Shown here: positions 3,755-63,044 of the stretch, piece by piece
Layout of the letters: every line of letters begins with the position of its first letter
Position numbering within the stretch: the stretch's first letter is position 1
Assembly (NCBI GenBank): GCA_951640195.1
Contig: OX621171.1
Coordinates: 1,984,001 to 2,048,000, forward strand
DNA: 64,000 nucleotides
Direction of reading: 5' to 3'
From: Porpolomopsis calyptriformis
Taxonomy: Eukaryota > Basidiomycota > Agaricomycetes > Agaricales > Hygrophoraceae
Translations under genes and position numbers: made by a program
The notes under the pieces: model-generated
Database searches by the model: none
What the model saw: the letters and a program-made list of their open reading frames with translations, nothing else
Told to the model about the DNA's origin: nothing

Positions 3755-3787
3755 CAGTCTTCAATTTAGCCATGTACACTTGCGCAC

Positions 3788-4510
3788 CGTACTTTAATCT
3801 TATGTTGCTATACTAGGTGTACCCAAGGCCCTTTACCTCGGCATGTCGTAGATTGACAGCATTTAAAGTTTTCTTAGCAGGCAAGTCTTGCGTTCCATAA
3901 TACAGGCTATCAATAACATTAGCAAACCTTTGCCAAAATGAGACTGTTGGAAGGAAGGGAAGGGAAATCAACGAAAAACAGTAACTAAATCACTCAATCA
4001 CCCCCTCACATCTTTTCAGTGATGAAAATTTCTAGTTACTGAAAAACAATACCACAGAGTAGGTTTGTAGGTGTGAATCATTAGCAAATTGGAAAACTTA
4101 CATTTAGCTAAGGCGGCAGCTGACTAGTCTACATTAAATTGACTTCACCATGCCCAAAGTACATCTAATCATTGCATGATCACCACGAATCAGTGCCAGT
4201 TGATCTGTTTATCAGTAAATTTCAGTTACGAATGCTGTAATACAATGAGAAAGTCGCTACTATTCAAACGAGAAAAAGAGACCTTCGGTGATAAAATTTC
4301 ATCGATTTTAGTTCCAATGGAGATGACCTCAACATCTCACTTGATTTTATGGTTCATCCTTCTTTTATAATTACACTCACGATTGTCCAAACTGCCTCTT
4401 TTGAAGTGCGCAGCCAAGCATAAGTTATGCTTGGCTCGATTTGAACACCTACCAAATATAGGATCAACAAACATTCACAAGTTCCGAAAGCACTACCGAA
4501 TCCGAATCCA
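3788..4510. other. Outer subterminal region of left arm
   Basis: This is noncoding. It holds the 90-bp block also found at 1,356-1,447 and an imperfect inverted repeat: CAGTAACT near 3,979 faces AGTTACTG near 4,036 across a pyrimidine-rich loop. The same sequence occurs at 62,312-63,044, where it has an extra ~9 bp (TCTTCAACC) next to GCTAATG. Confidence 0.5.
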
Positions 4511-5484
4511 ATGGCAGATCTCGATTTTATTCTCAACGATACCCATAGATGGCAGGATGACATATCAGAGGTTCAACCAAGCAGCTGGCTGTGTCTATTT
4601 GAATTGGAGAATTCAAAGAACTACCTGTTCAAACCGATGGGTTCCGATACAAAGATACGCTGGAAGTATTTTCCATTGGAATTCATTGCCTTTAATATCA
4701 TCACGAATCAGTCTCGCCACTTTTCCTTGCCATTCATGCTGTGACAACAGGTTGCATTTCTTGATCTTCAATATTGGGCTAGCCTGGTTTCTGGAGATAA
4801 ATCCATGTCATGCTATTTAGAGCTGCTAAGGGATGACCTCCTTGAAGAATTCTTCGCAATGGAACCCCCTTCCAGCTTTAATGAACAACCTTGGAGTACC
4901 CGGCCTTGGGCCGTTCGAACGATGCACTCCTTTGGCCACTCGAAGCCTGACCGTGACGCTTATCTCACCACATGCAGAGAACAGGGCTGGGAGAGTTATA
5001 TGCATGGCGACCCATTGGAATATCGTACATGATGAATGGCTCCCAAAGTCCTGATGGTTTATACTACGTTCTATAATAGGATGGACAGATATTTTCAACA
5101 AATATAAAAAACAAAATACCTGGATGAATTCGGGTCATCAAATTATAGACAGCCTTGCAAGCGCACTGAACAAAGTGAGGGAACATATCTCTGTGGGCCC
5201 TTCAAATGTTTTACTCTCTGCAGCCGACCTTCTCGACAAAGGTGACACCTGTTTGGCACAACAAGCTGGTGTGTGAATGGGATCCATCGCTCTCATGCTA
5301 CATCAGATATCCTGACTAAACGATCAGCCACAGTCAAGATCCCTGAGTTCGATATAAGTATTGAACCAACACATGTGGATAAATCACCATTGGATGTCGT
5401 ATCGGCACATTCTACCTCAAAAGCTGGTACGTGAATGGGATCTATGGGTCTCATGCCACACCAGGTATCAAATATCTAGACTGA
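4511..5484 (+). pseudogene. WAVR-A gene, left copy, with stop codon
   Basis: This is the left copy of the gene described at 61,338-62,311. Exons: 4,511-5,024, 5,080-5,268, 5,307-5,426 and 5,465-5,484. It differs by a TGA at 4,742-4,744 where the right copy has TGC (Cys), which would end the protein at 77 residues, before the conserved WAVR/HSFGHS motif. The rest of the frame is still open, so inactivation is recent. Confidence 0.7.
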
Positions 5485-6279
5485 TGATGATGATCGGCCA
5501 CAGAGGAGATTTCTTCTTCATTCGCAGGCGAAATCGAACAGAGGCTTAGGGCTCCGTTGCCAACATGCATCGTGCAGCCAAACAAGTTAGTTCATTCAGC
5601 CGCTCGATAACTTAGCATCCTTTGACTACTGTATAGCAGACAATCATCTACACGTGTGGCCGTGGTACGAACCTCGGAACCTCCAAGTAGGCAGGCTACT
5701 CAACGTGAATTTATTTATTGCGTATTGATTTATTAACTTATTCTTATTCTTATTTCTCTCCCACTTCAACAGCACAGGTTGAACGAGGGAAAAACTACAA
5801 ACAAAACAAGTGGAAGCGGAATAAAAAGAAGAAAATGAAGGCAGCTCTATTACGAGAGACAGAGGCTGAGTTAGCTGCGTGCAACCCACCCAGCCAACCG
5901 ACGTGACCCAACCATTCAACCACATGGGTGAACCGAGGGAGATAATAGCTTCAAGGGTGTAGCGCATCTGCTGGGCCAAACACTAACCGCAAGTACAACG
6001 TGGGGCTCTATCTCCCTAAGGGATAGGGAGTCCAGAAGCTGCCACCTTTCTGTATATGTAAATAAAGCAGATTGTGTTTGGCATATCTACTAGGTTACAT
6101 AAGGTTGTAATTGGTTTCATCGCAGGCAAGGTAATGTATGTATTCATGTATGTTTTTTTTTTTTTTTTCATGTGAGACATGAGCATCAAAGTCCAACTCA
6201 ATTGTATCGATTGTAAGACTGTAACAAAGTACAGGCATATGATAGCAGCACATCAATAGATAATGAATAGAAACTGTCC
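5485..6279. other. Intergenic between WAVR-A and WAVR-JmjC, left arm
   Basis: The genes on either side converge. The stretch holds AT-rich sequence, TTATTC repeats near 5,735-5,755 and a poly-T run near 6,151-6,168 whose length differs between the arms. No convincing gene. Confidence 0.4.
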
Positions 6280-8959
6280 CTATGGCGGTGGAAGAAAAAG
6301 TTCAGTGGATAAACATTTTTCTTCACTGAGCGCCATCCAATGCTCTCCACTGACGAGTACTTCTGACTCCATAGCTGTCAGGCTGATTCCTGCCCTTTCT
6401 AGTATCGCCTTGATCTGTTTCTGGGCCTCGTTGATTTCTCCTTCTTCCTCCTGAAAAAGGACATCCCACTCGGTCATTGGAAGGTCTGGCCTTTTCTGCT
6501 CACCCGGCAAAAGGTACTCATTCGATTTGAGAATCATTCTGGCCAGCGCCAAGAATGGCCGTCGATATATTTCTGGAAAGCTAGCTTTTAAACAAAAATG
6601 AGGGGATATCATTCATTCACGTGCTCACTTCGACTTTTGGCGACATGTGGAAGCGCTAAAACCATGCGAGAAAGCAACCTTGAGACGTGGTGATTTGCAT
6701 TTGTTGAAAAATGACCATGCATATGGTCGAAGTCCCGCGATTGTTCAGTGAGGTGAAGCGTCTCATAGGTATAAAAGTGACCTCCCAAACAATAGCTTGG
6801 CGTGGGGGTGTATACAGCATGCCAAATGCCAGGAGGCATAATTCTGACACATAGAATCAATATATGAGCATGAGTAATCAATTTTTAGAGTGTTAATAAT
6901 ATAAAAACTTACAGAATCTCCCCTGCAGAAAGAAACGTCGTGAAAATCTGAGCATGTTGATTCAGTTGGTGTAGTTGACTGAAGCAAATATCCTTGTGCA
7001 GGCTGCGCAACTTGTTCCGGGAGTTGTGACTTTTTGTGTATCTAGGTCGAATAATGGCCCAAATTTTTATCCCGGCGTGCGCATAGATCCAGGTACACAA
7101 GCCGTTAGCATCCTTGTGGGGGAATGTTACGAAGCCAGCATGCGTCAGCAGGTTCCACTGCATCATTTGCCAGGTGCACATCCGAATAACCTGTGGCCCT
7201 GGAAGGACTAGTTCTTGTCGAGTATTCGGCATCTTGTGATACTTTGACTTGTCCTTTGGAGGGTGCTTCCAAAACTTCGCGAATGATTCATGTTTTGTGA
7301 GCTGGAATGCGAGTGCTTCGTCACTTATTCGACTGTTAAGGTTACTTGTTGAAATAAGCCAATGTACAAGCTCTCAGCACTCTTACCATATAATAGAGGG
7401 GGTGGCATTTCTCAGTGAAGGGGCATCCAGGATATTTCCACAGATGTCTACATCCTCAGATGCCTCGATAAACTCCCCCAGGGAAGAGTGGCTGTGGATG
7501 ATGCCATCTGACTCCTTCTTGGACCTACCAACTGCATGCAATCTTGCATCTATACAATATTAAACCACAGTAATCGTAGAGATGGATTTTACATACCATG
7601 CCACTGAACTGGCTGGCTTAATGGACCCCTTGCTGCCTCGATCTCCTCCTTACAAAACGTCTCCGGACCTTCAAGATGTTGACCCTGTAATATAATGCAT
7701 CGCTGATTAGTGAGATGGAGTCGCACGGCTTCATCGATGGCATGAAGTGGTTGGGAAGGTTCTCTTGGTGGGATAACAACATAGTTAGTTTCATCCAAGT
7801 CCCAGTTGTTTATCGAATGGGTTGCAGATGAACCATCAGGTGATTTGGCAAGCACCTCAACTAATTTAGCGTCCTTAACAAAGCTTCAGTTAGCTGATCA
7901 AGAACGAGCACAAAATGATGGACAGACTGCATTTTGATAGCCCGGAACATGAACCCATGGAAGTACGGTTTGCAACCCATTGGCCCATTGAATCGAGGAT
8001 GCGTCCTGGGGAAAGTTCACTCCCCTCAATGAAGTAAAGTAGTCGTGCTTATTCTGGGTGAGGGGTGCTGATGTTATGCGTTATCTTCTTCTTCATAAGG
8101 ATGATGCGATGCGAATAACTTCACATACCAGATATTGTAGCTGGTTGATGTTTTTTTCGACTCGCGGGTTCTTCATCATCGGACAAAGATCGTTTTTGGG
8201 GAAGACTAGCGGCGCTCACTCCTTGGCCCAGTTCATTTGGATGGTTGATGAATCCGATCGCAATAAGATATTGCAGCAAGTCAGATTTCTCTTGAGCGGC
8301 ATCGCTTGAAGTGCCAGCCGTCGCTGGAGAGTCTGACCAAGTGTCGGTCACAAGCATCTCATTCCCAAATGACACGACCCTGGATATGTGACTCTTCCAA
8401 TCTTCAGTGAGCGATTTAATATCAGCTGTTGCACCCAATATTGATAAGATTACTCACCATATTGAGTCGGATCGTCATCTTCATAAGGCAGACGGTTCTC
8501 GTTTTTGCAACGATCGGCATAGAGTTGGCGACCTGTTTGAGAGTGTCCAAATGAATGGTAGACTCTGACGGCCCATTGCTTCACCGTCTTCAATCGCAAT
8601 GATGCTTGAGTGAGCAGTTTACGATCCTCAAACCACAACTCATGCTGCATGGCCAAACAGAGGTTCTGGAGGTACTGTTTGATTCGTCCTGCATGTCGTA
8701 CCTGGTTCTCTGCTTCAAGGCAGCTGTGGCGATGACTCAGGTCAAGGAAAGCAAGGATAGAGCAGTAATGGATGTGTATTTCGCGAGATCGCAGTGAGTT
8801 GTTGTGGTAGAAAAAGAGCTTGAATGTTGTTTGGGTCGATAATTCTGAGAAGCGCCAGAAATTGGACGGTTTATTCAAGAGGGTGGATGTCTTGGCTGGC
8901 CATAAAGCCTCATCATCAAATAGCTCTCCTTCTTTGTTGGCTATCGGTTGGGTGGCCAT
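6280..8959 (-). CDS. WAVR domain-JmjC dioxygenase, left copy
   Basis: Left copy of the gene at 57,864-60,543, described in full there. All exons remain open: 8,959-8,458, 8,425-8,129, 8,067-7,906, about 7,861-7,600, and further exons down to 6,280. The JmjC HKD iron motif and distal WHAVYTP are present. Only scattered substitutions separate the copies, for example one Trp/Gly difference antisense to the exon near 8,240. Together with WAVR-C it is one of the two left-arm genes without an obvious lesion. Confidence 0.65.
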
Positions 8960-9608
8960 GATAATGAATGTATGTGTGGGGGTCACGTGGGTATTTATTC
9001 GATTAAAGAGTTTGAAAGCTACAAAGACGATATGATTCTATCCAGGACTTGGATTAGATCATGTGCTATAAATGAATGCCGTATTCTCAAGTTTGAGGGT
9101 GACAAAGAAGCCCTGACATTTTCTTTGCCATTTGATTCATTCCACTACTCCTTCATCTGGTTGAAGGAGTTATAAATATTATGGTGAAAACCATCATCCT
9201 CATTATAATTTATTGAAGTGAAGGATACAGATTGTGGAGGTGTGAGGTATACCGCTGAGGAAAGGTGGCTACAATGATCTGTAAGTCCCATGGTAACTTG
9301 CAGCTGCTGTTCGCATGTAAAAAAACAAAAAACATCAAGAAACTTTCATTATCATCTTCGTCTTCATCTTCGTCTTCATCTTCCTTTCGAATCGTGGAGG
9401 AATGGTAACACTGTTATCGGAGAATTGAGGCTGCCCCCCCTCTATCTCAGCTTGGATCTTGGATCAGTATCAGCTTGGTAAATTCATCTGAATGAAATGC
9501 ACCATGGGATCCCACTGGCTGATCATTATCAGCTGAAAGATTTATTGCTAGCTGTGAAATACTAAATGATCACAATGAGTGAATGTGAACCATGTGTGTC
9601 TTACAGAC
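8960..9608. other. Intergenic, WAVR-JmjC upstream region, left arm
   Basis: Presumed promoter of the JmjC gene plus the 3' flank of WAVR-C. It contains a (GAAGAC/GAAGAT)n microsatellite near 9,355-9,390 and a CACGTG-containing word (GGTCACGTGGG) near 8,981, about 25 bp upstream of the start, which could be an E-box. No gene is visible. Confidence 0.45.
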
Positions 9609-10597
9609 CTACCCAAGATCAGCCTCATGGGTAGGTGATGATGTATTTACACCGTATCCATGGGAATCTGGGTTGATATTCTTCTCCTGAACATCGTTAG
9701 CCCACTGTTGGGCTGTATTTTCATTGATGCCAGTAGCAAAGAGAAGCATATAGCATTAGAGCATCCCTAAGCCAAGATGTTGATTTCATTTACTCTCACC
9801 ATTAACTCCAAGGAACAAAGCAAGTGCACAGGTCACAGAGTGCCCTCTGTCAAACCGGGGAGGTTTCGTGTGTGATTCTAGCTGCTGGAGACATAGCTGG
9901 AACCCCCTGCTTAGCCAGTTTGTATGGGTTTCGAATAAAGTATGCCATTCTATGTAGTTTGAATTGGAAAGCATGATGAGATAAGGGAAGCTTGTGTATG
10001 CAGAAGCTGCCTCTTACGGTATAAGGTTGGGTCTTCATGGGTGTATGGAGTCCACCCATTTGCCTTGCATTTCTGAAGGTACTCCCGTCTGCCGAAGAAA
10101 GAGTGGCCAAAAAAGTGATTCATTCTAACTGCCCACGGTATTGTCATTTTAGGTTGGAAGCTAGAGCCAAAGCTGCCATGGTTTTGTGATAACTCAACCC
10201 AGAGATCAGACCTGAGCCTTTCCAGGTAACGTGTGATACGATTTGCACTGGGATGAGGGTTAGCAACATTCGCCCAGTATTCAAGGTCAAGAAGAGCGAT
10301 CTGAAGTGTGGTCGATAGAGGGAGAGTGTAGTGTCGATGTTTGTTTCTGCTTTTGCAAAAAGCATGTAAAATGATCTGCTTTTGCTGGTTCAATTTGAGG
10401 GTCAAGTCAGGTTGTGTGAAAGGGTGGCTGATTTCCTCAAAGAGCCAGATGGTGTCGCTTGGTGGAACAGGAGAGCGATCGTTCGACCACCGATTATTAT
10501 CCGCATCCAAGCATCGAGAAGAACACATCATTTGGTTCCAAGGGTAGTTACATTTGGGGGTGGGTGGATAACTGCATGAAAACAAGATAATCAGCAT
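9609..10597 (-). CDS. WAVR-C protein, left copy
   Basis: Left copy of the gene at 56,226-57,214. All three proposed exons are open and splice sites are conserved. Differences from the right copy are a few substitutions (for example Met versus Thr just before WAVR). See the right copy for the full description. Confidence 0.6.
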
Positions 10598-11065
10598 AAA
10601 ATTTATCTAGATGTGGTGAAAAAATAAGCATTCATTCAATCGCATGCGTATAGCCATTGTGGTGCTGGAAGTAGTTTCGTGTGTGAGTCACAGCTCTTGA
10701 TCACTACTTAGGCTCCTCACACATCACTTCATAGCACATCACTTCATAAGTACATAACAGCTAGTTGATATTCACGCATACACAGACAAGATAGCTGGGA
10801 GTTAATCAATACAGTATCAAAGCAACTTGATATGTTATGCGTGACATCACATTTGCATACCAAAATGGGATGGGAGTGGCGCATGTGAACTTGCTAATTT
10901 ACACCTGCACACAGCTCAACATGTCTACACAGGTTTAGCACAAATCGTATGTAGTAGACTTATATAGTAACTAGCTTGGAATGCAGCAATACAAGTTGAT
11001 TAATATTTGTGGAAAGTTTGATGCGACATGCATGCAGCGTAATAGATGCTAATTCAGTAATTTTA
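10598..11065. other. Intergenic, WAVR-C upstream, left arm
   Basis: AT-rich promoter-like region between WAVR-C and the Sir2 3' end, with direct repeats of CACATCACTTCATA near 10,725-10,748. No gene is visible. Confidence 0.4.
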
Positions 11066-12216
11066 TCAAGACCATAACCTCCATGATGGTCTGTAGTTAA
11101 GCTTTCTGTCTCCATAGAGAACCTGAACCTGAGTGTGGTTGCTTTCGAGCATTTCACCTGACGCAATCATCTCCTCCATCCTTTTCAATACCAACCATGC
11201 AAACTCTTCACAGTCCATGTCTATCCAAGCGTTGAATATACCAGCCCACATAGCTGTGTTTGTAAAGGTATTATTGAGATATATAACTTGAGGCGATGCT
11301 TGTAAACTGGATTTGGGGGAATTTTTTGCTAAGATTCTAGCGGACTGCTTGATAAAGTCAGTAGTACCCTTCACTTTCAAGCTAGTGCCAACCACAAGGA
11401 GAAGATCTAGTTGGCGACTGGGGGTGGTAGTTTACCCAAGATCATTTTGCTGCACGTTTGCTATTTCTTCTCCTCGAGGATGTGGTTCTCCGTAAAGAAT
11501 GATATTGGGTCGGAGTCGAGGCACAGTCGTTCTGCGTTTGCCCTGCTCTACCCTCTTTTCCATATTGATTTAACATTCAGTGCATTCTGGTAGTTGGCCC
11601 TCTTTCAAAGAGGGGTAGTATGGTTTGAGGATAAAAATGGAGGAGCAGCCAGGGCATCATAGTTCCTCTAGGGATCCATGCAATGGAATGCATCGGGCTG
11701 GTCCATCACTGGGGTGAATTTCTGAGGACATATGTAACCCAGCCTTGAGCTCCAAACCATCGATATTTTGAGTGTAAACATGGAGTAACACTCCTTGGAG
11801 GTCTAGAGCACGAAGGAAATGGTGGAAGGCAGTGGGTTGTGCGATCGCTGCTTTCTCAGCAAGGGTGGCAATGAGCTGACAATGCAGTGATTGTTGCTTT
11901 TGGGTCTAGAACATTAACTTGGTCAACTAATCCTCACTTGAACATATATTTCTCACTACGAGGGATGAGCTAGTAAGCAGATCAGTCAGGTTGACTCCGG
12001 TAAATCCAGATAGTGCATTGCCAGTATATAAGCCATCTGGTCCTCTAAAACATGGAATACCTGCAGCCACGGATATTCCTGCTCCTAGAGAGTAGGTAAG
12101 TATTTGAATGAAACATGATGATGGGTCGATTTACCACAGAGCACGACGATTCTCTTTGCTTTCAGTATTCCATCCATTAGATCTGTTGCACTTTGTTTTA
12201 TAGTGGAGGGGAACAT
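11066..12216 (-). pseudogene. Sir2 sirtuin gene, left copy, with two stops
   Basis: Left copy of the sirtuin at 54,607-55,757. Two in-frame stops separate it: TGA (complement of 11,657-11,659) where the right copy has CGA (Arg) just after HGSLEEL, and TAA (complement of 11,432-11,434) where the right copy has TTA. The NAD-binding GAGIS and TQNIDGLE motifs lie before the breaks; the VVGTSLKV strand lies after them. It should not make an active enzyme. Confidence 0.8.
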
Positions 12217-12395
12217 AATAGCTGAGTTTTTAGCAGTAACACGGTGAAGGATAGTAGGTATTAGATAAGCTAGAAGAATGGTAAGGTATCAAATAAGCAA
12301 ATCTGAGCTACACCGAGGGCAAGTATAGTATGTTTGGTCTGTAACGACTAATGGCTCATAAGAGTCTGTGTTATCTATGCCGAATTCTGCCTCAA

Positions 12396-12796
12396 TGTTA
12401 TAAACTGGTTGTCGATGAGATGGTTTTACTTCGGAGAGCTCTGTCCCAAGACGATGATAATGTCTCAAGTCCTAGTTATTGGGTTGCTAACGAGGAATCA
12501 GACTTAAAGTCTGAGTACGACTAACTAGGGGTTTATATACTGACTACGCTACTGCGGATGAGTCAGTGTAAACACGAGGAATACATGAGGAATACATGCG
12601 ATGAGTAAAGATAAGCATGATAAGGGACTCGGAGCATGTGAAGAGATGAAACATGATTGTCGGAAATGAAATATGTCTTATCTCAGATATATGAAAAGAT
12701 AAGGAATGGTGGGGAATCCCAAGTAGAGATAAGACCTGTCCGATTAAGCAGTAATGACTAATCATAGAGAGGAAATGAAAATTTACGTCCGTGACA
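12396..12796. mobile_element. Solo LTR (401 bp) with 5-bp target duplication
   Basis: The insertion begins TGTTATAAAC and ends GTCCGTGACA, so it has the TG...CA ends of LTR retrotransposons. It is flanked by CTCAA at 12,391-12,395 and CTCAA at 12,797-12,801. The right arm has the empty site with a single CTCAA (antisense TTGAG near 54,433). No internal retrotransposon genes are present, so it is a recombined solo LTR. It postdates the duplication of the two arms. Family (Copia or Gypsy) cannot be told from the LTR alone. Confidence 0.9.
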
Positions 12797-13415
12797 CTCA
12801 AGCCAGTTTTCCCAGTCAGTGTCTATCATATTTAACTGAGACTCCTCAATGAGGTGAGCAGCTATCCATCCAGAGGCTTGGACAACACTGCGTTCCTGTG
12901 AAGAAAGCAACTTTCTAGCCTTGTTCACGATCCTAATATTTCCGGCTGTAAAATAAGTGAGACCTCCCCTAGCTGTGGGTTGGAAAGCAACTTGAAGTAT
13001 AATTTTTGGGGTGTCGGCAAACTTCTCTATAGCATAGAGATTGTTAAGATACTGCTGCTGGGTAATGTTGGCAGGGGTTCCTAGGCAAGTAAGATGGGAC
13101 CATCTTTTGCAGGACCAGCAGTAGCGTTGTTCCTCTGTATCGGGGGACCAAAGTGAATAACAGTGAGTTGCGCCACATATTTCTGGCTCGCCCTACCACC
13201 CAATAGATTACTACAGGGTATATGTTTAGTTCAATGAACGCACCTTCAATGCCTGCCTATGCCCATCCCAGAAGTATCTAATAGAAATTTTAGTATAATA
13301 GATGGGTTGGTATTATCATCAAGCTTACCGCATGTAATACGCGGTTACTGGAGGTTGATCTTTGATCTGATTTTTAATAATAACAATGTCGATTGTATCT
13401 ACAGTTTAATTTTCA

Positions 13416-13436
13416 GTTCAGTTCAGTTCAGTTCAT
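13416..13436 (+). repeat. CAGTT pentanucleotide microsatellite
   Basis: Four CAGTT units in the left arm versus three in the right arm (near 53,800-53,815). It lies in a BAH-PHD intron and explains 5 bp of the 411-bp offset between the arms. Confidence 0.8.
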
Positions 13437-14065
13437 TCTTTTATATCTGCTTCTCGATATAATAACCCTCACCTTCCAAGGCTTGCGCATCAATGATATC
13501 TGTAGAATCAGAGCCACACAGCTCTTGCTTTCCAAATGTGTTTATATACCTGTCAAGAGTAAGAAGAACATAGAGTGACAGGAGAAGGAGTAGGTTTTGA
13601 GATGCAACCTTTTAGTATCAGCCTTAACATCACTTCTCTCCAACAACTGCTTGGCTGTATACATCCATGAAACCTTAGCAAGATACTTGTTCTAAAGCAC
13701 ATTGTCAACATTGGGTAGGGTAGCTTGAGCAGGTGTATCACCTTAGTAGTTTTTCTTATTTGTAGGATCAAACCTTTCCAGTAGTCGTCCATTATAATAT
13801 TATTTTCTTCCTTTGCATGGAGGCCAAGGTGACGGATGAGGCAGCTGTGTTTGAGGGAAATAATCAAATGACTACTATTCAAGCATTATCGATAAACACT
13901 TACAAGTCATTCTTAACGAATTTGCAAGGAGAGCCTATAAAGTTTTGATTCGGAACAAATAGAACAAGGCATAGGTGATATCTCACCATCATTTGGATTA
14001 GGAACCTCGAGGTATTCTACGACTTTTGCAGATTTCCATTGTTTTTCCTCGGTTGTAGGTGCCAT

Positions 14066-14194
14066 AATAATAAATCTACGGACCAATGTTGATTATTCGT
14101 ATTATATTCCCACAGCTATATATATGTCACGTGAATGTAGATACACTTTGTCTCGACTATTGCACAAACATAGCTCTCGATCTTAACCTCCAAT
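14066..14194. promoter_or_regulatory. Bidirectional promoter, BAH-PHD / large gene (left)
   Basis: Only 129 bp separate the start codons of the divergent BAH-PHD and large-protein genes. The interval contains a TATATATAG run and the E-box-like GTCACGTGA near 14,127-14,136. It is identical in the right arm (53,040-53,168). Confidence 0.65.
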
Positions 14195-19562: not shown

Positions 19563-19639
19563 TGTATTGATTTGAAGATTATATATTCACAGGTCTATTC
19601 TACCTATATGTGTTACACTGCTTATTGTGGTACCCCAAT

Positions 19640-21620: not shown

Positions 21621-21826
21621 TATAGAGTGCAATACAATAGCTGGGCTGCATAATGGTATAAATGGAGTATTTTACATATATCTCAAGAATGGGACCGCCG
21701 ATTTTTTTAATTTATGGCTTAAACTGATTGTATTGGGATGCCCTAACGATTCCCCAAAGAATTTTGAATTAATTTTGTGCCAGCATTTTGGTCATTTTGT
21801 TGATAATGGGTCCCTGATGTGCAAAA

Positions 21827-22640: not shown

Positions 22641-22679
22641 TTTAATATCAACTCATCGAAATTTCGTATCTGGTGTGCC

Positions 22680-22955: not shown

Positions 22956-22990
22956 ATCTTGTTTTCTAGGGAAGACCCTGTCCGACAACA

Positions 22991-34891: not shown

Positions 34892-34924
34892 AAACGTGCT
34901 ATATATAGCACGACTAACCCGACT

Positions 34925-44745: not shown

Positions 44746-45106
44746 CCTACAAAATAAACTCTAAGTTGCCCAGCTCAGAGGTCTGTGTTGACTCACCTTG
44801 ATTTCTTACGAGACTTGGATTCTAAATCATCAGATAATGTCCTTTTCAGCCGTGTTGAAACCTCATTTCCTCCATGGCTTTCGTGGTCAGAGTTGTCGCA
44901 GTCATTTGTGGGCATAGCAAGCAAAGGGAGAGGGGCAGATGGAGGTGCGGAAGAAAGAAGCACAGAGATACGTCATGATAAGTGTGGAAGTAAAACGCCT
45001 GGAAGTAAAACGCCCAAGTCTAATTTCTCACAGTTTTTGCGCTCATCGTGCTCATCGATGCCTACGATCTCCCTTCATTTGCTACTTCTGTCCCTCATAA
45101 TTCTTA

Positions 45107-45403
45107 TGGTTCTATGTCCATCTTGTCATGCTACCTTCAAGAATAATCATGGACTCTCAAGACATCGTGCGTCCTGTAAACAAGCACGAGTTGGGAATGT
45201 CCGCCTCTTGGAGGGAATTGAGCGTGCAACAGCTGCGAAGGTTGCCCGTAGGCTTGCAGGGGATGTTGCAGAAGAGCGGCGGCAGCAGGAGGGGGAGGAT
45301 ATTTCTACTGGACTTGACGTATGACTTTGATCTCGTCAAGTACTCATTTATTTTGTATCGTACTAATAATTTGTACTTATAGACACACTCTATGGATTGT
45401 TAG
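45107..45403 (+). pseudogene. C2H2 zinc-finger exon of a Plavaka-like transposon gene, truncated
   Basis: The reading MVLCPSCHATFKNNHGLSRH with RASCK is the single N-terminal C2H2-type finger (CPxC...GLSxHxxxC) common at the start of Plavaka-type (CACTA-related) basidiomycete transposase genes. After a basic/acidic linker, an intron (GTATGACT...CTTATAG) leads to a short exon with a stop at 45,401-45,403, only a few bp before the right arm begins. No transposase core is present, so the gene was cut off, plausibly at the arm boundary. Confidence 0.5.
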
Positions 45404-45609
45404 ACATATTTTGCAAATCAGGGACCCATTATCAACAAAATGACCAAAATGCTGGCACAAAATTAATTCAAAATTCTTTGGGGGATCGTTAGGGCATCCC
45501 AATACAATCAGTTTAAGCCATAAATTAAAAAAATCGGCGGTCCCATTCTTGAGATATATGTAAAATACTCCATTTATACCATTATGTAGCCCAGCTATTG
45601 TATTGCACT

Positions 45610-47600: not shown

Positions 47601-47671
47601 GTACCACAATGAGCAGTGTAACACATATAGGTAGAATAGACCTGTGAATATATAATCTTCAAATCGATACA

Positions 47672-53039: not shown

Positions 53040-53168
53040 ATTGGAGGTTAAGATCGAGAGCTATGTTTGTGCAATAGTCGAGACAAAGTGTATCTACATT
53101 CACGTGACATATATATAGCTGTGGGAATATAATACGAATAATCAACATTGGTCCGTAGATTTATTATT
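53040..53168. promoter_or_regulatory. Bidirectional promoter, BAH-PHD / large gene (right)
   Basis: A 129-bp divergent intergenic region, identical in content to 14,066-14,194, with TCACGTGAC (53,101-53,109) followed by TATATATAG. It couples expression of the putative mobility protein with the chromatin reader. Confidence 0.65.
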
Positions 53169-54534
53169 ATGGCACCTACAACCGAGGAAAAACAATGGAA
53201 ATCTGCAAAAGTCGTAGAATACCTTGAGGTTCCTAATCCAAATGATGGTGAGATATCACCTATGCCTTGTTCTATTTGTTCCGAATCAAAACTTTATAGG
53301 CTCTCCTTGCAAATTCGTTAAGAATGACTTGTAAGTGTTTATCGATAATGCTTGAATAGTAGTCATTTGATTATTTCCCTCAAACACAGCTGCCTCATCC
53401 GTCACCTTGGCCTCCATGCAAAGGAAGAAAATAATATTATAATGGACGACTACTGGAAAGGTTTGATCCTACAAATAAGAAAAACTACTAAGGTGATACA
53501 CCTGCTCAAGCTACCCTACCCAATGTTGACAATGTGCTTTAGAACAAGTATCTTGCTAAGGTTTCATGGATGTATACAGCCAAGCAGTTGTTGGAGAGAA
53601 GTGATGTTAAGGCTGATACTAAAAGGTTGCATCTCAAAACCTACTCCTTCTCCTGTCACTCTATGTTCTTCTTACTCTTGACAGGTATATAAACACATTT
53701 GGAAAGCAAGAGCTGTGTGGCTCTGATTCTACAGATATCATTGATGCGCAAGCCTTGGAAGGTGAGGGTTATTATATCGAGAAGCAGATATAAAAGAATG
53801 AACTGAACTGAACTGAAAATTAAACTGTAGATACAATCGACATTGTTATTATTAAAAATCAGATTGAAGATCAACCTCCAGTAACCGCGTATTACATGCG
53901 GTAAGCTTGACGATAATACCAACCCATCTATTATACTAAAATTTCTATTAGATACTTCTGGGATGGGCATAGGCAGGCATTGAAGGTGCATTCATTGAAC
54001 TAAACATATACCCTGTAGTAATCTATTGGGTGGTAGGGCGAGCCAGAAATATGTGGCGCAACTCACTGTTATTCACTTTGGTCCCCCGATACAGAGGAAC
54101 AACGCTACTGCTGGTCCTGCAAAAGATGGTCCCATCTTACTTGCCTAGGAACCCCTGCCAACATTACCCAGCAGCAGTATCTTAACAATCTCTATGCTAT
54201 AGAGAAGTTTGCCGACACCCCAAAAATTATACTTCAAGTTGCTTTCCAACCCACAGCTAGGGGAGGTCTCACTTATTTTACAGCCGGAAATATTAGGATC
54301 GTGAACAAGGCTAGAAAGTTGCTTTCTTCACAGGAACGCAGTGTCGTCCAAGCCTCTGGATGGATAGCTGCTCACCTCATTGAGGAGTCTCGGTTAAATA
54401 TGATAGACACTGACTGGGAAAACTGGCTTGAGGCAGAATTCGGCATAGATAACACAGACTCTTATGAGCCATTAGTCGTTACAGACCAAACATACTATAC
54501 TTGCCCTCGGTGTAGCTCAGATTTGCTTATTTGA
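53169..54534 (+). CDS. BAH-PHD histone-reader protein
   Basis: Spliced by eye from about seven exons, starting MAPTTEEKQWKSAKVVEYLE. The BAH domain is seen as YWKGLILQIRKTTK, then KYLAKVSWMYTAKQLLER, then FGKQELCGSDSTDIIDAQAL and YYMRYFWD, matching the usual W(M/F)Y...E...S...D.I....I order. A PHD-type zinc cluster follows: EICGATHCY, YCWSCKRWSHLTCLG, a ~100-residue insert, and CPRCSS at the C-terminus (C4HC3-like). BAH-PHD proteins of fungi such as Neurospora EPR-1 read H3K27 methylation in silenced chromatin; whether this one does is inference. The stop lies 72 bp before the Sir2 start on the same strand, and I could not find a splice that fuses the two. The left copy is split by an LTR. 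Confidence 0.75.
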
Positions 54535-54606
54535 TACCTTACCATTCTTCTAGCTTATCTAATACCTACTATCCTTCACCGTGTTACTGCTAAAAACTCA
54601 GCTATT

Positions 54607-55757
54607 ATGTTCCCCTCCACTATAAAACAAAGTGCAACAGATCTAATGGATGGAATACTGAAAGCAAAGAGAATCGTCGTGCTCTGTGGTAAATCGACCC
54701 ATCATCATGTTTCATTCAAATACTTACCTACTCTCTAGGAGCAGGAATATCTGTGGCTGCAGGTATTCCATGTTTTAGAGGACCAGACGGCTTATATACT
54801 GGCAACGCACTATCTGGATTTACCGGAGTCAACCTGACTGATCTGCTTACTAGCTCATCCCTCGTAGTGAGAAATATATGTTCAAGTGAGGATTAGTTGA
54901 CCAAGTTAATGTTCTAGACCCAAAAGCAACAATCACTGCATTGTCAGCTCATTGCCACCCTTGCTGAGAAAGCGGCGATCGCACAACCCACTGCCTTCCA
55001 CCATTTCCTTCGTGCTCTAGACCTCCAAGGAGTGTTACTCCGTGTTTACACTCAAAATATCGATGGTTTGGAGCTCAAGGCTGGGTTACATATGTCCTCA
55101 GAAATTCACCCCAGTGATGGACCAGCCCGATGCATTCCATTGCATGGATCCCTAGAGGAACTACGATGCCCTGGCTGCTCCTCCATTTTTATCCTCGAAC
55201 CATACTACCCCTCTTTGAAAGAGGGCCAACTACCAGAATGCACTGAATGTCAAATCAATATGGAAAAGAGGGTAGAGCAGGGCAAACGCAGAACGACTGT
55301 GCCTCGACTCCGACCCAATATCATTCTTTACGGAGAACCACATCCTCGAGGAGAAGAAATAGCAAACGTGCAGCAAAATGATCTTGGGTTAACTACCACC
55401 CCCAGTCGCCAACTAGATCTTCTCCTTGTGGTTGGCACTAGCTTGAAAGTGAAGGGTACTACTGACTTTATCAAGCAGTCCGCTAGAATCTTAGCAAAAA
55501 ATTCCCCCAAATCCAGTTTACAAGCATCGCCTCAAGTTATATATCTCAATAATACCTTTACAAACACAGCTACGTGGGCTGGTATATTCGACGCTTGGAT
55601 AGACATGGACTGTGAAGAGTTTGCACGGTTGGCATTGAAAAGGATGGAGGAGATGATTGCGTCAGGTGAAATGCTCGAAAGCAACCACACTCAGGTTCAG
55701 GTTCTCTATGGAGACAGAAAGCTTAACTACAGACCATCATGGAGGTTATGGTCTTGA
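54607..55757 (+). CDS. Sir2-family NAD-dependent protein deacylase (sirtuin)
   Basis: Exon 1 (54,607-54,688) ends ...RIVVLCG and splices to exon 2 at 54,739, giving GAGISVAAGIPCFRGPDGLY, the NAD-binding signature. A second intron after SSSLV leads to the long exon with LLRVYTQNIDGLE, the catalytic His in PLHGSLEELRCPGC, the zinc Cys pairs CPGC...CTEC, NIILYGEPHP and VVGTSLKVKG. All core sirtuin residues are present; length is about 350-375 aa, with no added targeting domain. Sirtuins remove acyl groups from lysines using NAD, and nuclear fungal ones silence chromatin. Its position beside a BAH-PHD reader suggests a joint role, which is inference. Confidence 0.9.
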
Positions 55758-56225
55758 TAAAATTACTGAATTAGCATCTATTACGCTGCATGCATGTCGC
55801 ATCAAACTTTCCACAAATATTAATCAACTTGTATTGCTGCATTCCAAGCTAGTTACTATATAAGTCTACTACATACGATTTGTGCTAAACCTGTGTAGAC
55901 ATGTTGAGCTGTGTGCAGGTGTAAATTAGCAAGTTCACATGCGCCACTCCCATCCCATTTTGGTATGCAAATGTGATGTCACGCATAACATATCAAGTTG
56001 CTTTGATACTGTATTGATTAACTCCCAGCTATCTTGTCTGTGTATGCGTGAATATCAACTAGCTGTTATGTACTTATGAAGTGATGTGCTATGAAGTGAT
56101 GTGTGAGGAGCCTAAGTAGTGATCAAGAGCTGTGACTCACACACGAAACTACTTCCAGCACCACAATGGCTATACGCATGCGATTGAATGAATGCTTATT
56201 TTTTCACCACATCTAGATAAATTTT
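55758..56225. other. Intergenic between Sir2 and WAVR-C, right arm
   Basis: AT-rich upstream region for WAVR-C with the TATGAAGTGATGTG direct repeats that are also present in the left arm. No gene is visible. Confidence 0.4.
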
Positions 56226-57214
56226 ATGCTGATTATCTTGTTTTCATGCAGTTATCCACCCACCCCCAAATGTAACTACCCTTGGAACCAAATGATGTGT
56301 TCTTCTCGATGCTTGGATGCGGATAATAATCGGTGGTCGAACGATCGCTCTCCTGTTCCACCAAGCGACACCATCTGGCTCTTTGAGGAAATCAGCCACC
56401 CTTTCACACAACCTGACTTGACCCTCAAATTGAACCAGCAAAAGCAGATCATTTTACATGCTTTTTGCAAAAGCAGAAACAAACATCGACACTACACTCT
56501 CCCTCTATCGACCACACTTCAGATCGCTCTTCTTGACCTTGAATACTGGGCGAATGTTGCTAACCCTCATCCCAGTGCAAATCGTATCACACGTTACCTG
56601 GAAAGGCTCAGGTCTGATCTCTGGGTTGAGTTATCACAAAACCATGGCAGCTTTGGCTCTAGCTTCCAACCTAAAACGACAATACTGTGGGCAGTTAGAA
56701 TGAATCACTTTTTTGGCCACTCTTTCTTCGGCAGACGGGAGTACCTTCAGAAATGCAAGGCAAATGGGTGGACTCCATACACCCATGAAGACCCAACCTT
56801 ATACCGTAAGAGGCAGCTTCTGCATACACAAGCTTCCCTTATCTCATCATGCTTTCCAATTCAAACTACATAGAATGGCATACTTTATTCGAAACCCATA
56901 CAAACTGGCTAAGCAGGGGGTTCCAGCTATGTCTCCAGCAGCTAGAATCACACACGAAACCTCCCCGGTTTGACAGAGGGCACTCTGTGACCTGTGCGCT
57001 TGCTTTGTTCCCTGGAGTTAACGGTGAGAGTAAATGAAATCAACATCTTGGCTTAGGGATGCTCTAATGCTATATGCTTCTCTTTGCTACTGGCATCAAT
57101 GAAAATACAGCCCAACAGTGGGCTAACGATGTTCAGGAGAAGAATATCAACCCAGATTCCCATGGATACGGTGTAAATACATCATCACCTACCCATGAGG
57201 CTGATCTTGGGTAG
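56226..57214 (+). CDS. WAVR-C: protein with the WAVR/HSFGHS domain
   Basis: Three exons fit: 56,226-56,805, 56,874-57,023 and 57,111-57,214. The start is uncertain (ATG at 56,226, 56,292 or 56,295; CTTGTTTTCATGCAG before the exon looks like an acceptor). The protein is homologous to the N-terminus of the JmjC gene and to WAVR-A: shared segments are IALLDLEYWAN, RYLERLRSDLW, and WAVRMNHFFGHSFFGRREY, followed by C-x4-GW-x-PY-x2-EDP-x2-Y. After it come WHTLFETHTNWLS and a short tail ending GVNTSSPTHEADLG. I do not recognise the domain from any named family. No membrane segment or signal peptide is seen. Confidence 0.65.
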
Positions 57215-57863
57215 GTCTGTAAGACACACATGGTTCACATTCACTCATTGTGATCATTTAGTATTTCACAGCTAGCAATGAATCTTTCAGCTGATAATGA
57301 TCAGCCAGTGGGATCCCATGGTGCATTTCATTCAGATGAATTTACCAAGCTGATACTGATCCAAGATCCAAGCTGAGATAGAGGGGGGGCAGCCTCAATT
57401 CTCCGATAACAGTGTTACCATTCCTCCACGATTCGAAAGGAAGATGAAGACGAAGATGAAGACGAAGATGATAATGAAAGTTTCTTGATGTTTTTTGTTT
57501 TTTTACATGCGAACAGCAGCTGCAAGTTACCATGGGACTTACAGATCATTGTAGCCACCTTTCCTCAGCGGTATACCTCACACCTCCACAATCTGTATCC
57601 TTCACTTCAATAAATTATAATGAGGATGATGGTTTTCACCGTAATATTTATAACTCCTTCAACCAGATGAAGGAGTAGTGGAATGAATCAAATGGCAAAG
57701 AAAACGTCAGGGCTTCTTTGTCACCCTCAAACTTGAGAATATGGCATTCATTTATAGCACATGATCTAATCCAAGTCCTGGATAGAATCATATCGTCTTT
57801 GTAGCTTTCAAACTCTTTAATCGAATAAATACCCACGTGACCCCCACACATACGTTCATTATC
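57215..57863. other. Intergenic, WAVR-JmjC promoter region, right arm
   Basis: Holds the GAAGAC/GAAGAT microsatellite near 57,440-57,470 and CCCACGTGACCC at 57,831-57,842, about 25 bp before the start codon of the JmjC gene. A similar CACGTGA word occurs in the BAH-PHD/large-gene promoter, so shared control is possible. No gene is visible. Confidence 0.45.
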
Positions 57864-60543
57864 ATGGCCACCCAACCGATAGCCAACAAAGAAGGAGAGC
57901 TATTTGATGATGAGGCTTTATGGCCAGCCAAGACATCCACCCTCTTGAATAAACCGTCCAATTTCTGGCGCTTCTCAGAATTATCAACCCAAACAACATT
58001 CAAGCTCTTTTTCTACCACAACAACTCACTGCGATCTCGCGAAATACACATCCATTACCGCTCTATCCTTGCTTTCCTTGACCTGAGTCATCGCCACAGC
58101 TGCCTTGAAGCAGAGAACCAGGTACGACATGCAGGACGAATCAAACAGTACCTCCAGAACCTCTGTTTGGCCGTGCAGCATGAGTTGTGGTTTGAGGATC
58201 GTAAACTGCTCACTCAAGCATCATTGCGATTGAAGACGGTGAAGCAATGGGCCGTCAGAGTCTACCATTCATTTGGACACTCTCAAACAGGTCGCCAACT
58301 CTATGCCGATCGTTGCAAAAACGAGAACCGTCTGCCTTATGAAGATGACGATCCGACTCAATATGGTGAGTAATCTTATCAATATTGGGTGCAACAGCTG
58401 ATATTAAATCGCTCACTGAAGATTGGAAGAGTCACATATCCAGGGTCGTGTCATTTGGGAACGAGATGCTTGCGACCGACACTTGGTCAGACTCTCCAGC
58501 GACGGCTGGCACTTCAAGCGATGCCGCTCAAGAGAAATCTGACTCGCTGCAATATCTTATTGCGATCGGATTCATCAACCATCCCAATGAACTGGGCCAA
58601 GGAGTGAGCGCCGCTAGTCTTCCCCAAAAACGATCTTTGTCCGATGATGAAGAACCCACGAGTCGAAAAAAACATCAACCAGCTACGATATCTGGTATGT
58701 GAAGTTATTCGCATCGCATCATCCTTATGAAGAAGAAGATAACGCATAACATCAGCACCCCTCACCCAGAATAAGCACGACTACTTTACTTCGTTGAGGG
58801 GAGTGAACTTTCCCCAGGACGCATCCTCGATTCAATGGGCCAATGGGTCGCAAACCGTACTTCCATGGGTTCACGTTCCGGGCCATCAAAATGCAGTCCG
58901 TCCATCATTTTGTGCTCGTTCTTGATCAGCTAACTGAAGCTTTGTTAAGGACGCTAAATTAGTTGAGGTGCTTGCCAAATCACCTGATGGTTCATCTGCA
59001 ACCCATTCGATAAACAACTGGGACTTGGATGAAACTAACTATGTCGTTATCCCACCAAGAGAACCTTCCCAACCACTTCATGCCATCGATGAAGCCGTGC
59101 GACTCCATCTCGCTAATCAGCGATGCATTATATTACAGGGTCAACATCTTGAAGGTCCGGAGACGTTTTGTAAGGAGGAGATCGAGGCAGCAAGGGGTCC
59201 ATTAAGCCAGCCAGTTCAGTGGCATGGTACGTAAAATCCATCTCTACGATTACTGTGGTTTAATATTGTATAGACGCAAGATTGCGTGCAGTCGGTAGGT
59301 CCAAGAAGGAGTCAGATGGCATCATCCACAGCCACTCTTCCCTGGGGGAGTTTATCGAGGCATCTGAGGATGTAGACATCTGTGGAAATATCCTGGATGC
59401 CCCTTCACTGAGAAATGCCGCCCCCTCTATTATATGGTAAGAGTGCTGAGAGCTTGTACATTGGCTTATTTCAACAAGTAACCTTAACAGTCGAATAAGT
59501 GACGAAGCACTCGCATTCCAGCTCACAAAACATGAATCATTCGCGAAGTTTTGGAAGCACCCTCCAAAGGACAAGTCGAAGCATCACAAGATGCCGAATA
59601 CTCGACAAGAACTAGTCCTTCCAGGGCCACAGGTTATTCGGATGTGCACCTGGCAAATGATGCAGTGGAACCTGCTGACGCATGCTGGCTTCGTAACATT
59701 CCCCCACAAGGATGCTAACGGCTTGTGTACCTGGATCTATGCGCACGCCGGGATAAAAATTTGGGCCATTATTCGACCTAGATACACAAAAAGTCACAAC
59801 TCCCGGAACAAGTTGCGCAGCCTGCACAAGGATATTTGCTTCAGTCAACTACACCAACTGAATCAACATGCTCAGATTTTCACGACGTTTCTTTCTGCAG
59901 GGGAGATTCTGTAAGTTTTTATATTATTAACGCTCTAAAAATTGATTACTCATGCTCATATATTGATTCTATGTGTCAGAATTATGCCTCCTGGCATTTG
60001 GCATGCCGTATACACCCCCACGCCAAGCTATTGTTCGGGAGGTCACTTTTATACCTATGAGACGCTTCACCTCACTGAACAATCGCGGGACTTCGACCAT
60101 ATGCATGGTCATTTTTCAACAAATGCAAATCACCACATCTCAAGGTTGCTTTCTCGCATGGTTTTAGCGCTTCCACATGTCGCCAAAAGTCGAAGTGAGC
60201 ACGTGAATGAATGATATCCCCTCATTTTTGTTTAAAAGCTAGCTTTCCAGAAATATATCGACGGCCATTCTTGGCGCTGGCCAGAATGATTCTCAAATCG
60301 AATGAGTACCTTTTGCCGGGTGAGCAGAAAAGGCCAGACCTTCCGATGACCGAGTGGGATGTCCTTTTTCAGGAGGAAGAAGGAGAAATCAACGAGGCCC
60401 AGAAACAGATCAAGGCGATACTAGAAAGGGCAGGAATCAGCCTGACAGCTATGGAGTCAGAAGTACTCGTCAGTGGAGAGCATTGGATGGCGCTCAGTGA
60501 AGAAAAATGTTTATCCACCGAACTTTTTCTTCCACCACCATAG
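57864..60543 (+). CDS. JmjC-type Fe(II)/2OG dioxygenase with N-terminal WAVR domain
   Basis: I chose the ATG at 57,864 (MATQPIANKEGELFDDEAL). Exon 1 (to 58,365) encodes the WAVR domain (AFLDLSHRHS, QWAVRVYHSFGHSQTGRQLY, DDDPTQY). Exons at 58,398-58,694 and 58,756-58,917 add a Ser-rich linker with a basic SRKKHQ patch. After further exons (LVEVLAKSPDG, HDARLRAVGRSKKESDG) comes the JmjC core: THAGFVTFPHKDANGLCTW with the HxD iron ligands, KIWAII with the 2OG-type Lys, and PPGIWHAVYTP with the distal His, then GGHFYTYETLHLTE. The C-terminal exon (60,240-60,543) is helical and acidic. The fold matches JmjC histone demethylases or hydroxylases; the substrate is unknown. All frames join cleanly across eight or so introns of about 32-80 bp. 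Confidence 0.8.
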
Positions 60544-61337
60544 GGACAGTTTCTATTCATTATCTATTGATGTGCTGCTATCATATGCCTGTACTTTGTT
60601 ACAGTTTTACAATCGATACAATTGAGTTGGACTTTGATGCCCATGTCTCACGTGAAAAAAAAAAAAAAACATACATGAATACATACATTACCTTGCCTGC
60701 GATGAAACCAATTACAACCTCATGTAACCTAGTAGATATGCCGAACACAATCTGCTTTATTTACATATACAGAAAGGTGGCAGCTTCTGGACTCCCTATC
60801 CCTTAGGGAGATAGAGCCCCATGTTGTACTTGCGGTTAGTGTTTGGCCCAGCAGATGCGCTACACCCTTGAAGCTATTATCTCCCTCGGTTCACCCGTGT
60901 GGTTGAATGGTTGGGTCGCATTGGTTGGCTGGGTGGGTTGCGCGCAGCTAACTCAGCCTCTGTCTCTCGTAATAGAGCTGCCTTCATTTTCTTCTTTTTA
61001 TTCCGCTTCCACTTGTTTTGTTTGTAGTTTTTCCCTCGTTCAACCTGTGCTGTTGAAGTGGGAGAGAAATAAGAATAAGAATAAGTTAATAAATCAATAC
61101 GCAATAAATAAATTCACGTTGAGTAGCCTGCCTACTTGGAGGTTCCGAGGTTCGTACCATGGCCACACGTGTAGATGATTGTCTGCTATACAGTAGTCAA
61201 AGGATGCTAAGTTATCGAGCGGCTGAATGAACTAACTTGTTTGGCTGCACGATGCATGTTGGCAACGGAGCCCTAAGCCTCTGTTCGATTTCGCCTGCGA
61301 ATGAAGAAGAAATCTCCTCTGTGGCTGATCATCATCA
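60544..61337. other. Intergenic between convergent JmjC and WAVR-A genes, right arm
   Basis: Contains an A-run near 60,656-60,670 (one base different in length from the left arm) and AT-rich repeats AAGAATAAGAATAAG near 61,072. Long open frames here are not conserved in codon pattern, and I do not call them. Confidence 0.4.
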
Positions 61338-62311
61338 TCAGTCTAGATATTTGATATCTGGTGTGGCATGAGACCCATAGATCCCATTCACGTACCAGCT
61401 TTTGAGGTAGAATGTGCCAATGCGACATCCAATGGTGATTTATCCACATGTGTTGGGTCGATACTTATATCGAACTCAGGGATCTTGACTGTGGCTGATC
61501 GTTTAGTCAGGATATCTGATGTAGCATGAGAGCGATGGATCCCATTCACACACCAGCTTGTTGTGCCAAACAGGTGTCGCCTTTGTCGAGAAGGTCGGCT
61601 GCAGAGAGTAAAACGTTTGAAGGGCCCACAGAGATATGTTCCCTCGCTTTGTTCAGTGCGCTTGCAAGGCTGTCTATAATACGATGACCCGAATTCATCC
61701 AGGTATTTTGTTTTTTATATTTGTTGAAAATATCTGTCCATCCTATTATAGAACGTAGTATAAACCATCAGGACTTTGGGAGCGATTCATCACGTACGAT
61801 ATTCCAATGGGTCGCCATGCATATAACTCTCCCAGCCCTGTTCTCTGCATGTGGTGAGATAAGCGTCACGGTCAGGCTTTGAGTGGCCAAAGGAGTGCAT
61901 CGTTCGAACGGCCCAAGGCCGGGTACTCCAAGGTTGTTCATTAAAGCTGGAAGGGGGTTCCATTGCGAAGAATTCTTCAAGGAGGTCATCCCTTAGCAGC
62001 TCTAAATAGCGCGACATCGATTTATCTCCAGAAACCAGGCTAGCCCAATATTGAAGATCAAGAAACGCAACCTGTTGGCACAGCATGAATGGCAAGGAAA
62101 AGTGGCGAGACTGATTCGTGATGATATTAAAGGCAATGAATTCCAATGGAAAATACTTCCAGCGTATCTTTGTGTCGGAACCCATCGGTTTGAACAGGTA
62201 GTTCTTTGAATTCTCCAATTCAAATAGACACAGCCAGCTGCTTGGTTGAACCTCTGAGATGCCATCCTGCCATCTATGGGTATCGTTGAGAATAAAATCG
62301 AGATCTGCCAT
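61338..62311 (-). CDS. WAVR-A: protein with the WAVR/HSFGHS domain
   Basis: Four exons fit on the minus strand, giving about 280 aa: the first (62,311-61,798) covers MADLDFILNDTHRWQDGISE, SSWLCLFELENS, QQVAFLDLQYWASL, RYLELLRDDLLEEFF and the key motif PWAVRTMHSFGHSKPDRDAY with C-x4-GW-x2-Y-x3-DP-x2-Y. The next exons read WTDIFNKYKK, IIDSLASALNKVREHIS, NVLLSAADLLDKGDTCLAQQ and VKIPEFDISIEPTHVD, ending IKYLD. Two of its introns are only 38 bp and about 80% identical to each other. It is homologous to WAVR-C and to the N-terminus of the JmjC gene. Function unknown; the conserved His/Cys/Asp pattern could bind metal or nucleic acid (inference). The left copy has a stop. Confidence 0.68.
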
Positions 62312-63044
62312 TGGATTCGGATTCGGTAGTGCTTTCGGAACTTGTGAATGTTTGTTAATCCTATATTTGGTAGGTGTTCAAATCGAGCCCAGCATAACTT
62401 ATGCTTGGCTGCGCACTTCAAAAGAGGCAGTTTGGACAATCGTGAGTGTAATTATAAAAGAAGGATGAACCATAAAATCAAGTGAGATGTTGAGGTCATC
62501 TCCATTGGAACTAAAATCGATGAAATTTTATCACCGAAGGTCTCTTTTTCTCGTTTGAATAGTAGCGACTTTCTCATTGTATTACAGCATTCGTAACTGA
62601 AATTTACTGATAAACAGATCAACTGGCACTGATTCGTGGTGATCATGCAATGATTAGATGTACTTTGGGCATGGTGAAGTCAATTTAATGTAGACTAGTC
62701 AGCTGCCGCCTTAGCTAAATGTAAGTTTTCCAATTTGCTAATGATCCGCACCTACAAACCTACTCTGTGGTATTGTTTTTCAGTAACTAGAAATTTTCAT
62801 CACTGAAAAGATGTGAGGGGGTGATTGAGTGATTTAGTTACTGTTTTTCGTTGATTTCCCTTCCCTTCCTTCCAACAGTCTCATTTTGGCAAAGGTTTGC
62901 TAATGTCTTCAACCTTATCGATAGCCTGTATTATGGAACGCAATACTTGCCTGCTAAGAAAACTTTAAATGCCGTCAATCTACGACATGCCAAGGTAAAG
63001 GGCCTCGGGTACACCTAGTATAGCAACATAAGATTAAAGTACGG
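62312..63044. other. Outer subterminal region of right arm
   Basis: Noncoding; equivalent to 3,788-4,510. Includes the AGTTACTG/CAGTAACT inverted repeat pair near 62,783-62,850 and the end block near 62,930-63,017 that also occurs at 1,356-1,447. Confidence 0.5.

Follow-up and report, generated by a model that had tools for sequence, protein, structure and literature searches.

Porpolomopsis calyptriformis carries a family of one-ended giant elements, polar to telomeres, near most of its chromosome ends

To our knowledge, the mobile elements that build or cap chromosome ends are all retroelements. HeT-A, TART and TAHRE of Drosophila, MoTeR of Magnaporthe and FoTeR of Fusarium, which like the element described here sit at chromosome ends, are small non-long-terminal-repeat retrotransposons with other genes and other junctions. 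Helitrons possess a 5'-TC end, insert at A^T or T^T, and terminate in a CTRR 3' end with a hairpin. Passages of the report on bdelloid rotifer terminons (PMC6431247) describe giant Athena/Penelope-like elements at telomeres, up to 40 kb in size and encoding a reverse transcriptase. Here we analyse a 64,000-nucleotide stretch of DNA from the fungus Porpolomopsis calyptriformis (the window; contig OX621171.1, C9 below), whose two inverted arms belong to a family of giant, one-ended, telomere-polar elements located near most chromosome ends. In its geometry the family looks like terminons or HeT-A and in its end like a Helitron; on present evidence it does not clearly fit the full definition of either.

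The genome comprises 33.5 Mb in 17 contigs, and the window (1,984,001-2,048,000 on C9, a contig of 2,082,215 bases) therefore lies close to a contig end. Comparison of the window with itself bears out the inverted arms proposed in a preliminary description: 45,409-63,044 and 21,826-3,787 align as reverse complements at ~99% identity, in two pieces because the left arm holds ~400 bp at 12,396-12,796 that the right arm does not. The preliminary description interpreted the arms as copies of a giant multi-copy element of ~18 kb. Giant size and multiplicity stand; the limits, size and symmetry assigned to the element do not, given that the inner edge is the true end and that the unit, fixed at one end and variable at the distal one, extends over at least 49 kb.

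The inner edge of each arm is a true element end, located exactly at 45,418 and 21,817, and in searches with inner-edge probes many hits begin or break off at these positions, give or take a few bases, while their flanks differ. The fixed end, or head, of the right-arm unit (TCAGGGACCCATTATCAACAAAATGACC, 45418-45445, plus strand) opens into element sequence rightwards, towards the nearer contig end, and that of the left-arm unit (21790-21817, minus strand; C9:2005790-2005817 minus) opens leftwards. A search of the 33.5-Mb genome for the 28-bp head (TCAGGGACCCATTATC...), allowing up to 2 mismatches, returned 102 matches, 46 on the plus and 56 on the minus strand, with none for the reversed-pattern control; the family is thus multi-copy and not confined to the two copies in the window. 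Despite the mismatches allowed, TC is kept in all of the 100 heads listed from these 102. Each of the 40 head junctions read has the form (A/T)TC|AGGGACCCATTAT, that is WTC|AGGG; the element end is a 5'-TC next to A or T, and its start is base exact (5'-TCAGGGACCC...) at every junction read. Upstream of these 40 junctions the 12-mers are of 38 distinct kinds, or represent 37 sites if loci L042 and L071, separated by 6 nt within one tail, are counted as one. Eleven of the 40 junctions were chosen by a TC-containing pattern, and for those W alone is an independent test; TC is present as well in 29 of 29 junctions chosen without that pattern. A second head variant, TTATTAACAAA for TTATCAACAAA (L110, L117 and L121), accounts with one difference for 8 of the 100 listed heads, on C1, C2, C10 and C11, and recurs in one C4 head with two differences. 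This variant may be a subfamily.

Comparison with native (uninterrupted) target sites refines the junction rule. At the 14 such sites compared, with L069 left out, W is followed by T at 13 and by TC at 10, whereas the background values for T and TC in this DNA are 0.28 and 0.07. Three native sites carry T without C, such that at least the C is element-derived there, unless the compared copies differ. Helitrons share the 5'-TC end, the joining between A/T and T and a tendency to carry other genes. Insertion of the Helitron kind may be what is visible here from the head side, where W precedes TC at 40 of 40 junctions and T is the next native base at 13 of 14 sites. This end and its A^T or T^T insertion would be accounted for by a Helitron (or Helitron2/Helentron) of giant, non-autonomous type in which the 3' end was lost or bypassed, and the 35 Helitron_like_N matches in the genome could act in trans; TET/JBP-carrying fungal Helitrons are published (PMC12730594). 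Several observations nevertheless render a Helitron unlikely. No Rep is found among the larger open reading frames (ORFs) scanned in the ~34 kb of unit that was read, and C16, a contig with several units in tandem, contains none of the 35 Helitron_like_N matches, a divergent Rep being possible in the ~13 kb of unit outside the scan. The CTRR end with its hairpin was not found in the sequence read; the copies have no distal end in common, since beyond the first candidate point eight loci still have identical sequence and further heads follow at many distances; and neither telomere polarity, which we do not know as a Helitron trait, nor a length of at least 49 kb is Helitron-like.

Closer examination of the arms' outer edges, which had been described as sharp, revealed that neither is an element end. 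A probe made of the right arm's outermost 2 kb has 103 candidate places in the genome; the best 40, which were scored, are all near-identical to it, lie no more than ~340 kb from a contig end and, on C1-C14, are oriented minus at left ends and plus at right ends. Thirty loci were fetched from the best-scoring candidates, the window's own included, and all of the other 29 extend beyond 63,044 with the sequence that the window has there, L030 with an internal deletion and L006 until its contig starts. At 3,786/3,787 the left arm abuts a variant form of the distal part of the unit itself (1-3786, containing a TET/JBP-like dioxygenase region and an alpha-kinase-like gene), and six further places hold the same variant at 98-99% identity with the arm's end at equal spacing. 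The apparent edge at 63,044 exists because the left arm departs there, at its fusion point; the ~18-kb arm is the proximal part of units that can reach about 50 kb. Within the window, the right-arm unit is represented by its proximal 18.6 kb (45418-64000, plus) and runs ~15.6 kb further to the next head at C9:2063636. The left-arm unit (3787-21817, minus) is a decayed, distally truncated copy whose fusion partner at 3786/3787 is other subtelomeric sequence. An 18-kb two-ended transposon was rejected as a description, since copies run past 63,044 and head spacing varies from 57 bp to ~52 kb; window position 3,659 was rejected as a distal end, since 8 of 8 loci continue identically beyond it. 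No second end of DDE or tyrosine-recombinase type is seen at 63,044, and distal ends vary, in a reading that covers all of the unit except ~13 kb.

The distances from one head to the next illustrate this variability. Neighbouring heads of the same direction lie 57, 116, 129, 2,292, 2,793 and 3,293 bp apart, with clusters of spacings at 25, 29, 49 and 52 kb and larger gaps too; the head-to-head gaps were not read through and thus are upper bounds on unit length. The unit itself is interrupted by heads too, at several points such as the equivalents of window 48,212 and 48,712, and likewise in L055 and L056. Some units stand in tandem arrays with constant periods of 29,310 and 49,281 bp. Such arrays, together with near-identical copies, of which four fetched 5-kb examples on C16 are identical, telomere polarity and block junctions held in common (the left-arm head flank recurs in nine loci, L043-L051, the window's included), are what ordinary subtelomeric segmental duplication by homologous recombination and break-induced replication, with no dedicated mobility, would produce. 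As the sole explanation this is improbable, for homologous exchange would neither produce an identical, base-exact end with strict WTC at 37-38 unrelated sites nor leave heads just 57-129 bp apart. Homologous exchange surely acts after attachment. Over-expansion of the identical C16 tandem units by the assembler would be a further source of copies, and most fetched contig ends are without telomeres; dozens of distinct junctions, unequal unit lengths and one rule at every junction make an assembly artefact scarcely credible.

The heads are strongly polarized with respect to the chromosome ends. Seven of the 100 listed heads fall on the small contigs C15 and C16, and the other 93 were placed on the halves of C1-C14; 79 of these 93 run towards the nearer contig end (p=4e-12, arrays included). 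Counted by distinct site in a hand tally that leaves out one C15 site and one site with copies in both directions, 32 of 35 are telomere-ward (p=4e-7). The terminal 400 kb (34% of the length) contain 86 of the 93 heads and the terminal 100 kb (8%) contain 49, and 24 of the 28 contig halves bear heads. This is not the scatter expected of a cut-and-paste transposon. Internal heads occur at C9 505-601 kb and C1 3.42-3.60 Mb. Retroelement and Helitron hits appear in mirror order at C1 3.42-3.83 Mb and C9 0.28-0.60 Mb, suggestive of a large common segment, to which those internal heads may belong because the Helitron hits pair up with equal frame lengths on both contigs.

The sequence next to the telomeres varies as well. 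At end C6R, a unit truncated at the equivalent of 59,969, within the JmjC-like gene, passes directly into telomere repeats; at C1R the repeats adjoin a piece of the window's host-type spacer that breaks off near 37,709; and at C12L the neighbouring sequence matches none of those compared. In the telomere repeat, TTAGG and TTAGGG are mixed irregularly (52 and 23 units, respectively, over the three ends L078, L085 and L092), and a TTAGGG-only telomere was rejected, as three consecutive TTAGGG gave 0 matches owing to this mixture. A subtelomeric sequence, R (C12:1,640,340-1,642,860), is cut at six points on six contigs with a head next to it each time, at positions 94, 551, 721, 811, 1,425 and 2,501 on C10, C5, C1, C9, C11 and C12, respectively, with 96-100% identity. 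Such a deletion series is what the capping of differently broken ends would leave.

This geometry, with a fixed proximal end, a variable distal end and telomere-polar arrays, is shared with terminons, for which passages of PMC6431247 likewise describe giant size, head-to-tail arrays at chromosome ends, distal truncation and extra genes. It raises the alternative of a terminon- or HeT-A-like retroelement attached by the 3' end of its RNA, the head corresponding to that 3' end and 5' truncation lying on the telomere side. The head-to-tail arrays and the layout that those passages attribute to rotifer terminons (PMC6431247) agree with it, as does the orientation of the largest gene, P (47672-52110, minus strand), which reads towards the head. 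P consists of two exons separated by a candidate 47-nt GTAAGC..CAG intron, giving a frame that stays open for 1,463 aa, counted without reference to a start codon or to any upstream exon; the left-arm copy (15124-19562, plus) has the same layout and one in-frame stop relative to the right arm. The candidate spliceosomal intron is kept in both arms, which argues against copying through the P mRNA. Moreover, no reverse transcriptase occurs among the larger ORFs of the ~34 kb read, none of the RVT_1 matches among the 150 of 820 candidates scored lies on C16, and neither TTAGG/TTAGGG runs nor poly(A) is present at the head junctions shown. Terminons differ in these respects, as they encode a reverse transcriptase and join telomeric repeats, in contrast to the WTC sites free of telomere repeats here. 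A retroelement attached in this way is very improbable. A reverse transcriptase domain with two in-frame stops does lie at C11:193,876-194,358; being ~0.2 kb on the centromere side of the head at C11:193,664, it is outside the unit.

The explanation that we favour, with modest confidence, is DNA-based, one-ended strand transfer from the 5'-TC head with replacement of the chromosome tip. Near a chromosome end, a nick or break at an (A/T)^T(C) site would receive the head end, all donor DNA distal of the head, up to the telomere, would be carried along, and the recipient's old tip would be replaced. Transfer would start at the 5'-TC head and proceed without a set stopping point, as would a rolling-circle (HUH-type) reaction that ran off the end of the chromosome; the driving enzyme would be protein P or one provided in trans. 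The polarity of the heads and their bias to subtelomeres would arise through survival of only those products that keep the centromere and lose little of the arm. Later recombination would amplify units into tandem arrays, and tail-to-tail fusions would generate inverted blocks such as the window.

A number of observations weigh against one-ended tip replacement. First, at one of the 14 native sites (L117) the junction has ~6 extra nt, more like end-joining, and the additional microhomology at L062, L070 and L075 also fits end-joining. Second, 3 of the 35 distinct sites point away from the telomere, and many heads are tandem duplicates, so that 102 heads do not equal 102 events. Third, telomere repeats are present at just three of 20 fetched contig ends, one on the unit, one on spacer and one elsewhere; both C9 ends are without them, and most real ends are therefore unseen. 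Fourth, the unit of C16 type was read except for ~13 kb (C16:52,933-66,302), and a natural distal end may lie there. Finally, no cutting or joining enzyme is identified: P has no significant Pfam match and no PDB sequence match, and exon 2 matches no solved PDB fold, in a fold comparison covering the residues after the first 953.

The gene content of the unit largely agrees with that reported earlier. P is the large protein of unrecognized type in that account; its exon 1 has six relatives in other records (46-71% identity) and its exon 2 has 36 (26-66%); P0034 spans both parts. A Sir2 gene (54700-55757, plus) is well supported, with a profile match at 54918-55757 (Pfam 84.3 bits, cut-off 24), matches to PDB sirtuins and, by eye, an AGIS..GIPCFRG motif in an upstream exon. 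The proposed BAH-PHD protein is reduced to a PHD-like finger ORF (54037-54534, plus) below the Pfam cut-off (17.5 bits, cut-off 24), BAH not being confirmed. The JmjC-like gene (58938-60543, plus; several exons) presumably deserves its label from the JmjC-type motifs HKD...W and PPGxWHAVYTP, seen by eye; profile scans yielded no support. Rather than two 'WAVR' proteins there are three per arm by eye; the first two (56217-56873 and 57786-58373, both plus) have no known domain, and the third lies on the P strand (61790-62377, minus). Further out, the unit contains two F-box-like ORFs below the cut-off and a TET/JBP-like dioxygenase (27.1 bits, cut-off 34.9, in the L056 copy; window equivalent ~539-1141, plus), and the window's distal variant contains an alpha-kinase-like gene (3041-3760, minus) above it (34.2 bits, cut-off 21.3). 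The Sir2, PHD, JmjC and TET-like genes may adjust heterochromatin or DNA methylation at chromosome ends. Each arm also carries the subterminal tandem array noted before, at 45759-47559 (plus, period ~141-149 bp) and 19676-21473 (minus, period 141-149 bp).

The arms contain no recognized transposase, as had been noted. The scanned ORFs lack a DDE transposase, no terminal inverted repeats bounding the unit were found, and these features separate the family from KDZ, Plavaka and other TET+ fungal DNA transposons, with which it shares a TET/JBP-like dioxygenase, here below the Pfam cut-off (parts of PMC12730594). Similarly, the family resembles the subtelomeric RecQ/TLH-type repeats of Agaricus bisporus var. 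burnettii in being multi-copy subtelomeric mushroom genes (parts of PMC7473861), and differs in having no RecQ-like helicase among the ORFs scanned and one base-exact proximal end.

Between the two heads of the window lies host-type DNA (21818-45417) with a fungal fatty acid synthase gene (about 22991-34978, minus), other ORFs and a dispersed repeat. Fourteen places match a 3-kb fatty acid synthase probe with 99-100% identity; no more than ~250 kb separates 12 of these from a contig end, and at least two lie well inside contigs. This is a housekeeping-type gene amplified in subtelomeres. The dispersed repeat (44,200-45,397, ending at 45,397) has ~7 further copies, five of them well inside contigs, and is a separate, unclassified transposon. 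The inverted pair in the window represents two separate head attachments facing outwards from this piece of host-type DNA, and the whole looks like host DNA capped on both sides, one cap having later fused tail-to-tail to another end. An inverted pair of ~90 bp (85%) lies beside the fusion point, at 1,357-1,452 and 3,810-3,899, and also occurs near 62,932-63,014. The left arm is decaying relative to the right: 104 of the 171 differences are C>T or G>A, and new stops affect Sir2 (three), P (one) and WAVR3 (one), possibly through decay related to methylation or resembling repeat-induced point mutation.

No such element is described in the open-licence PMC literature as far as searched (top-ranked papers), in line with its having been called undescribed. 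It is a variant among chromosome-end elements, with a fair chance of being a class of its own. More tentatively, it could be eukaryotic mobile DNA of a new class, an element that has one functional end and grafts its own chromosome tip onto other chromosomes at W^TC sites by means of P, a protein of unmatched fold, and whose own histone- and DNA-modifying genes would set the chromatin of the new end.

The chromatin-type genes and the telomere-ward copies hint at an unusual mode of capping chromosome ends and of spreading between them. A giant one-ended element with an exact end, chromatin-type genes and, so far, no reverse transcriptase would, if one-ended transfer is true, mean DNA-based copying of tips between chromosomes. 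This would help to explain the subtelomeric spread of host genes such as that detected by the fatty acid synthase probe. The 28-bp head is a simple tag, and the idea is therefore directly testable in other isolates and reads.

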